Positions 1 through 826 of a stretch of DNA of 50,972 nucleotides are shown piece after piece; positions within the stretch are counted from its first letter, which is position 1; the number at the start of each line of letters is the position of its first letter. The notes beneath the pieces were generated by a model that had not been told where the DNA came from, searched no databases, and saw nothing but the letters and a program-made list of their open reading frames with translations. The stretch comes from Paracoccaceae bacterium (GTDB lineage: Bacteria > Pseudomonadota > Alphaproteobacteria > Rhodobacterales > Rhodobacteraceae). The DNA lies in contig JAAEZA010000029.1 of NCBI GenBank assembly GCA_018223125.1, positions 1 through 50,972 on the forward strand, given 5' to 3'. Position numbers and translations under genes: made by a program.

Positions 1-826
1 GGCCATGTGGTGCCGTTTTCCATTGTCTCCAACCGCGCGCGGGTCTGGAAGGTTGCTTCGGCTGCCGCCAGATCAACGCGGGAGTTCACGCCCAGGGTTT
101 CCGTTTCGGGGCAGGTGATGGCCGCGCAGGGCAAATCCCTGTCCCGCGCCAGCCCCACCAGATCGGTCAGGTAGTACTCACCGCTTTTGTTGTCATTTTT
201 CACGGCTTCAATCAGATCGAACATTGTGGCGCGATCGGCGCAGATCACGCCGGAGTTGCACAGCGTGATCGCCAGTTCTTCGGGGCTGGCATCCTTGGCT
301 TCAACGATCCGTTCCAGACCGCCTTTGGCGTTCAGCACAAGCCGGCCGTATTTTGCGGGCTCTGCGGCCTCGAAGCCGAGCACAACAATACCCGCACCGG
401 ACTGGCGGGCCGAAAGCATGTCTTGCAGGGTTTCTTCGCGGATGAAGGGTGTATCGCCGTAAAGGACCACGACATCCCCGTCAAAATCTGCCAGCACATC
501 ACGCGCCTGTTTGACGGCGTGGGCGGTGCCAAGCTGTTCTTCCTGCGTCACGATAAGGGCGTTTTCGTCGTATTCTCTTGCTGCCTTGGCCACCGCAGCG
601 CCGCCGTGTCCGGTAACAACGACGATGCGATCTGCCTTAATCGACTGCGCCGCGCGCATGGCGTGCACCAGCAGGGGCGCATGGGCCACTTTATGCAGGA
701 CTTTGGGAAGATCCGATTTCATGCGACCAGCAGGGGCGCATGGGCCACTTTGTGCAGGACTTTGGGAAGATCCGATTTCATGCGGCTGCCTTGACCGGCT
801 GCCAGAATTACCACTGCTACAGGCAT
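1..826 (-). CDS. glmU: GlmU N-terminal part (partial at window edge, frameshifted by a 59-bp duplication)
   Basis: This is bifunctional UDP-N-acetylglucosamine pyrophosphorylase / glucosamine-1-phosphate acetyltransferase, which makes UDP-GlcNAc for peptidoglycan and LPS. The ATG at 826-824 follows a GGGGG-type ribosome site and opens with the nucleotidyltransferase signature [18 protein letters not shown]. The 3' end, including the acetyltransferase domain, lies outside the window. A 59-bp direct duplication (667-725 and 726-784) shifts the frame, so the first reading frame stops after 35 codons at 721-719. The rest of GlmU is open from an ATG at 722-720 that overlaps that stop (ATGA), but a product started there lacks the first 15 residues, including the glycine-rich loop. 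Family assignment is secure. Whether the break is real or an assembly error cannot be told from the sequence; glmU is normally essential. Confidence 0.85.
667..784. repeat. 59-bp tandem direct duplication inside glmU
   Basis: Copy A is 667-725 and copy B is 726-784. They are directly adjacent and identical except for one base (A at 693, G at 752). That base is the third position of the same His codon (CAT/CAC), so the difference is silent. Because 59 is not a multiple of three, the duplication breaks the glmU frame. Confidence 0.95.

Follow-up and report, generated by a model that had tools for sequence, protein, structure and literature searches.

Does the tandem repeat near the start of this contig record a real mutation that splits glmU, a normally essential gene, or is it a product of how the genome was assembled? 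The window, that is, the whole stretch of 50,972 bases that was analyzed, is a complete contig (C51) of a genome of 98 contigs and 3.90 Mb (completeness score 98.99%), and its first base falls within glmU, which lies on the reverse strand. Within the gene a 59-bp unit stands twice, head to tail, with the copy distal to the glmU start at 667..725 (reverse strand; His codon CAT) and the proximal copy at 726..784 (reverse strand; His codon CAC). A repeat search and TRF agree on 2.0 copies with 58/59 identical bases, and the repeat is the top-scoring TRF row in the 50,972-base window. When up to three mismatches were allowed, the unit was found at 667-784 alone, against a mean of 0.00 in 100 shuffles. 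The single mismatch, at 693 versus 752, is the silent third base of the His codon, so the sequence-only reading, which had described two adjacent copies distinguished by one synonymous CAT/CAC difference, was exact on this point. The uninterrupted identical runs within the repeat measure 26 and 32 bases, each shorter than 55, while the unit itself, at 59, is longer than 55; the junction at 725/726 carries no extra shared bases. Elsewhere in the window, TRF reports imperfect repeats of 15, 30 and 63 bp at 45883-46067, which probably encode a stretch rich in lysine and alanine, like that of histone H1-like proteins.

Because 59 bp do not make a whole number of codons, the second copy disrupts the glmU frame. 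The upstream ORF (719..826, reverse strand) has 35 codons and comprises the normal GlmU start with the motif LAAGQGSRM, ending in a TGA at the copy junction, and the downstream glmU ORF (3..722, reverse strand) begins with MKSDLPKV, lacks the first 15 residues including LAAGQGSR, and runs off the contig at base 3, where it is open and has no stop. The TGA of the upstream ORF (721-719) overlaps the ATG of the downstream ORF (722-720) as ATGA, and the frame break with overlapping stop and start that had been proposed is thus seen directly in the ORFs at 826-719 and 722-3. The accompanying proposal, loss of the pyrophosphorylase motif through the split, is correct for the downstream ORF and fails for the upstream 35-aa ORF, which retains the motif; as assembled, no single open frame contains both the uridyltransferase domain and its N-terminal motif. 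A literature search on GlmU Arg18, the arginine missing here, returned no paper. Programmed frameshifting was considered as a way across the break and rejected, as a -1 shift would be required and no slippery heptamer was spotted in an inspection made by eye alone.

Comparison with relatives was informative on whether the doubled stretch belongs to the gene. Neptunicoccus sediminis CY02, closest among the named relatives at 90% amino-acid identity, carries the unit once, in an intact 452-aa glmU ORF adjoining glmS. In a 21.4-kb alignment to N. sediminis (87.8% identity), no length difference apart from the 59 extra bases exceeds 8 bases; the remaining length differences, going by their positions relative to the listed ORFs, are intergenic or at likely gene edges, and small ones at 10849-10875 reach into the beginning of a mechanically called ORF with a provisional start. 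No break separates the GlmU start motif from the remainder of the protein in any of the 109 relatives' loci that were scored (100 with a strict pattern, 2 with a relaxed pattern and 7 by eye), a set in which not every locus is a separate genome, with L004 and L033 apparently being one contig. A tandem-repeat test run on 100 of these 109 glmU loci left 99 clean, and the one flagged locus holds unread bases. Across 238 codons of the downstream glmU part compared with N. sediminis, dN is 0.055 and dS is 0.52, and the part is under purifying selection. The single copy and intact frame that related genomes were expected to show if the duplication were false are what was found.

The doubled stretch is one of two lesions that glmU shows in the assembly within ~800 bases. 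Since C51 starts within the gene (contig end at 1..10, reverse strand, where the last bases are one off in length relative to the relative), glmU is cut by the contig end as well as interrupted by the repeat. Its residues 282-451 are encoded at positions 87818-88327 of a second contig, C26 (88,328 bases), with 97% identity to N. sediminis, and glmS then adjoins, named from the ORF beside glmU in locus L033; judged from N. sediminis, ~75 bp are absent between the C51 and C26 ends. On the side of glmU away from glmS, a HAD-phosphatase gene occupies 954-1619. The C-terminal acetyltransferase (hexapeptide) part is thus present at the C26 end, the hexapeptide domain being shown on the N. sediminis protein. 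As in bacterial GlmU of family TIGR01173, both halves are present in the genome, the second adjoining glmS as in N. sediminis, although the pieces score 232.8 and 216.8 bits, each below the family cut-off of 366.85, a shortfall that the contig break and the repeat together produce. The 70 bases that open C51 and the 70 that close C26 have no second occurrence anywhere in the genome, so neither end runs into another contig and both are dead ends; a partner contig could have been lost from the genome through binning.

The contig ends also carry a signature of the assembler. Among the 95 of 196 contig ends that were compared, 19 pairs share an overlap of exactly 55 bases, and overlaps of any other length within 12-300 are absent, which indicates assembly on a K=55 de Bruijn graph. 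This value is the largest in the 21/33/55 series, which is used by metaSPAdes and also by SPAdes with 100-bp reads (PMC8611953), and it fits a metagenomic sample without requiring one. The glmU locus resembles an unmerged overlap in a SPAdes-type de Bruijn assembly in that a doubled stretch slightly longer than K sits at an internal join, exact overlaps of length K occur at other contig ends, and a dead end lies nearby in the same gene; it differs in that the doubled overlap sits inside a contig and contains a mismatch. A paper describing exactly such a scar was not found in a limited literature search.

From these observations we infer that the 59-bp duplication is very probably an artefact of the assembler, with no corresponding change in the bacterium. 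Thin read coverage across glmU would have left two pairs of dead ends in the K=55 graph, one of which would have stayed open as the break between C51 and C26. The other pair would have shared a 59-base overlap with one differing base, originating from a strain variant or a read error; with that base no exact stretch of 55 would remain, so that the graph would have been unable to merge the ends. A later joining step may then have placed them head to tail, and the overlap would consequently have been written twice. Such a joining step, and the escape of overlaps longer than K from merging, would be expected from how assemblers of this kind work. The real gene would most likely be a normal glmU, intact and present once, with glmS behind it.

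To see the repeat in its genomic context, 2,111,685 unmasked bases of the same genome (2.11 of 3.90 Mb) were scanned for tandem units between 20 and 1500 bp long whose copies are ≥90% identical; the scan keeps the best place per unit length per stretch, and could thus miss some units, and it skipped four stretches of unread bases. Seven tandem units were found, the 59-bp glmU unit included. A hipA-like gene (L153:8699-8834, contig C5) contains a 67-bp unit with 66/67 identical bases, out of frame, with runs of 26 and 42 and, as in glmU, its single mismatch 26 bases in from the left end. In the downstream ORF the match to the HipA N-terminal domain does not begin until profile position 35, and the upstream piece lies in a different frame; this is probably the same kind of assembly scar. 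Additionally, a glycosyltransferase locus (L193:3321-3450, contig C16) contains a 65-bp unit with 59/65 identical bases and a longest run of 33, at the meeting point of a family 2 glycosyltransferase ORF (418 aa) and an 888-aa ORF in another frame with other domains. It is probably a comparable scar whose copies are less alike, for which strain variation seems likelier than read error given three core mismatches, and the repeat may split one gene or may sit at the border of two ORFs. The glmU, hipA-like and glycosyltransferase units span 59-67 bp, just over K, and every exact run in them is shorter than 55. The hipA-like ORF has matches in 6 of 25 genomes including its own, with a best other match of 40% identity and none in N. 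sediminis, and the glycosyltransferase ORF in 4 of 25 with the others weak; as the relatives searched hold no close homologue of either gene, glmU alone has a close comparator.

The other four units in this genome look tolerated. Two are exact, of 23 bp and 20 bp, and sit right at gene ends or next to them. A 94-bp unit (90/94) at L158:5802-5989 (contig C6) is intergenic, with exact runs shorter than 55 and partial similar copies nearby, and looks like a natural intergenic repeat. A 205-bp unit at L203:2656-3065 (contig C27) carries two tRNA-Gly(gcc) genes with an exact run of 114, and looks like a genuine tandem tRNA duplication. No further out-of-frame units just over K, of the kind that an artefact would predict, appeared in an additional 49 kb of the same genome, a small sample. 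A control set of 84 loci taken from other genomes (582,224 bases) yielded 10 tandem hits in 7 loci, with units of 20-52 and none longer; these loci come from other assemblies and were counted irrespective of position relative to genes, and L033 overlaps the N. sediminis stretches.

The main alternative is a real and recent tandem duplication that inactivates the uridyltransferase half of GlmU, with the cell surviving on another source of UDP-GlcNAc or on weak reinitiation at the ATGA. The exactness of the repeat and the presence of the ATGA are in keeping with it, such a stop/start overlap being a usual layout for reinitiation. Moreover, assembly at K=55 could reproduce a real mismatch-bearing duplication of 59 bp correctly, and the assembly of this genome contains the genuine-looking 205-bp unit with its exact run of 114, both of which count against an artefact. 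Reinitiation, however, would yield a product from the downstream ORF, which is without LAAGQGSR, and the junction, lacking extra shared bases, is unlike the usual product of slippage. A real duplication would also leave the contig break in glmU and the sibling scar each in need of a separate explanation.

The supply of UDP-GlcNAc bears on the same alternative. The check that had been suggested for a second intact glmU or a separate uridyltransferase was run on this genome with the TIGR01173 and TIGR01826 profiles and found neither. With TIGR01173 the best match outside the glmU pieces scored 38.1 bits, and no second GlmU was found in the genome. TIGR01826, a CofD/YvcK-related family that we take to cover YvcK/GlmR, likewise had no match in the genome; controls matched in 10 of 14 genomes, Bacillus subtilis not among them. 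YvcK/GlmR is an accessory uridyltransferase reported from Listeria (PMC10128056). A search with PF01704 gave no match in the genome and none in any control genome either, and so carries no weight. The genome does contain murA, and UDP-GlcNAc is therefore needed. In Mycobacterium tuberculosis each of the two GlmU activities is essential independently of the other, and uridyltransferase activity is abolished by the K26A substitution (PMC4619583). Arguing by analogy from that organism, a genuine glmU knockout would be unlikely here, and with murA present and neither profile pointing to another source, we regard a real duplication as improbable.

A related explanation is a mixed population in which a minority of cells truly carry the duplication and the assembler took it up. 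The single silent difference between the copies fits coexisting variants, yet the recurrence of units slightly longer than K at unrelated loci, and the dead ends within glmU, would be left unexplained, and we consider this explanation highly improbable. A reversible duplication switch (phase variation) operating at the glmU, hipA-like and glycosyltransferase loci, even in an essential gene and in part of the population, would account for three loci in the scanned part with similar-sized tandem units whose lengths are not multiples of three, but it is scarcely credible given that no further copy was found of glmU, which is expected to be essential, that the repeated units carry mismatches and that the unit sizes follow the assembler's K.

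The assembly artefact, for which the sequence-only reading had also opted in preferring an unresolved overlap to a real duplication, is thus supported by the single copy in the nearest relative and by the lack of a second glmU in the profile search of this genome. Further support comes from the break in glmU with its unique ends, the 55-base contig-end overlaps, and the hipA-like and probable glycosyltransferase scars. For the biology of the bacterium the weight of the repeat is very probably nil, as glmU is expected to be intact. What the locus offers is a caution, namely that an out-of-frame, mismatch-bearing tandem unit slightly longer than K can mark false pseudogenes in short-read assemblies, a pattern that is clear twice, and probable a third time, in the scanned part of this assembly.
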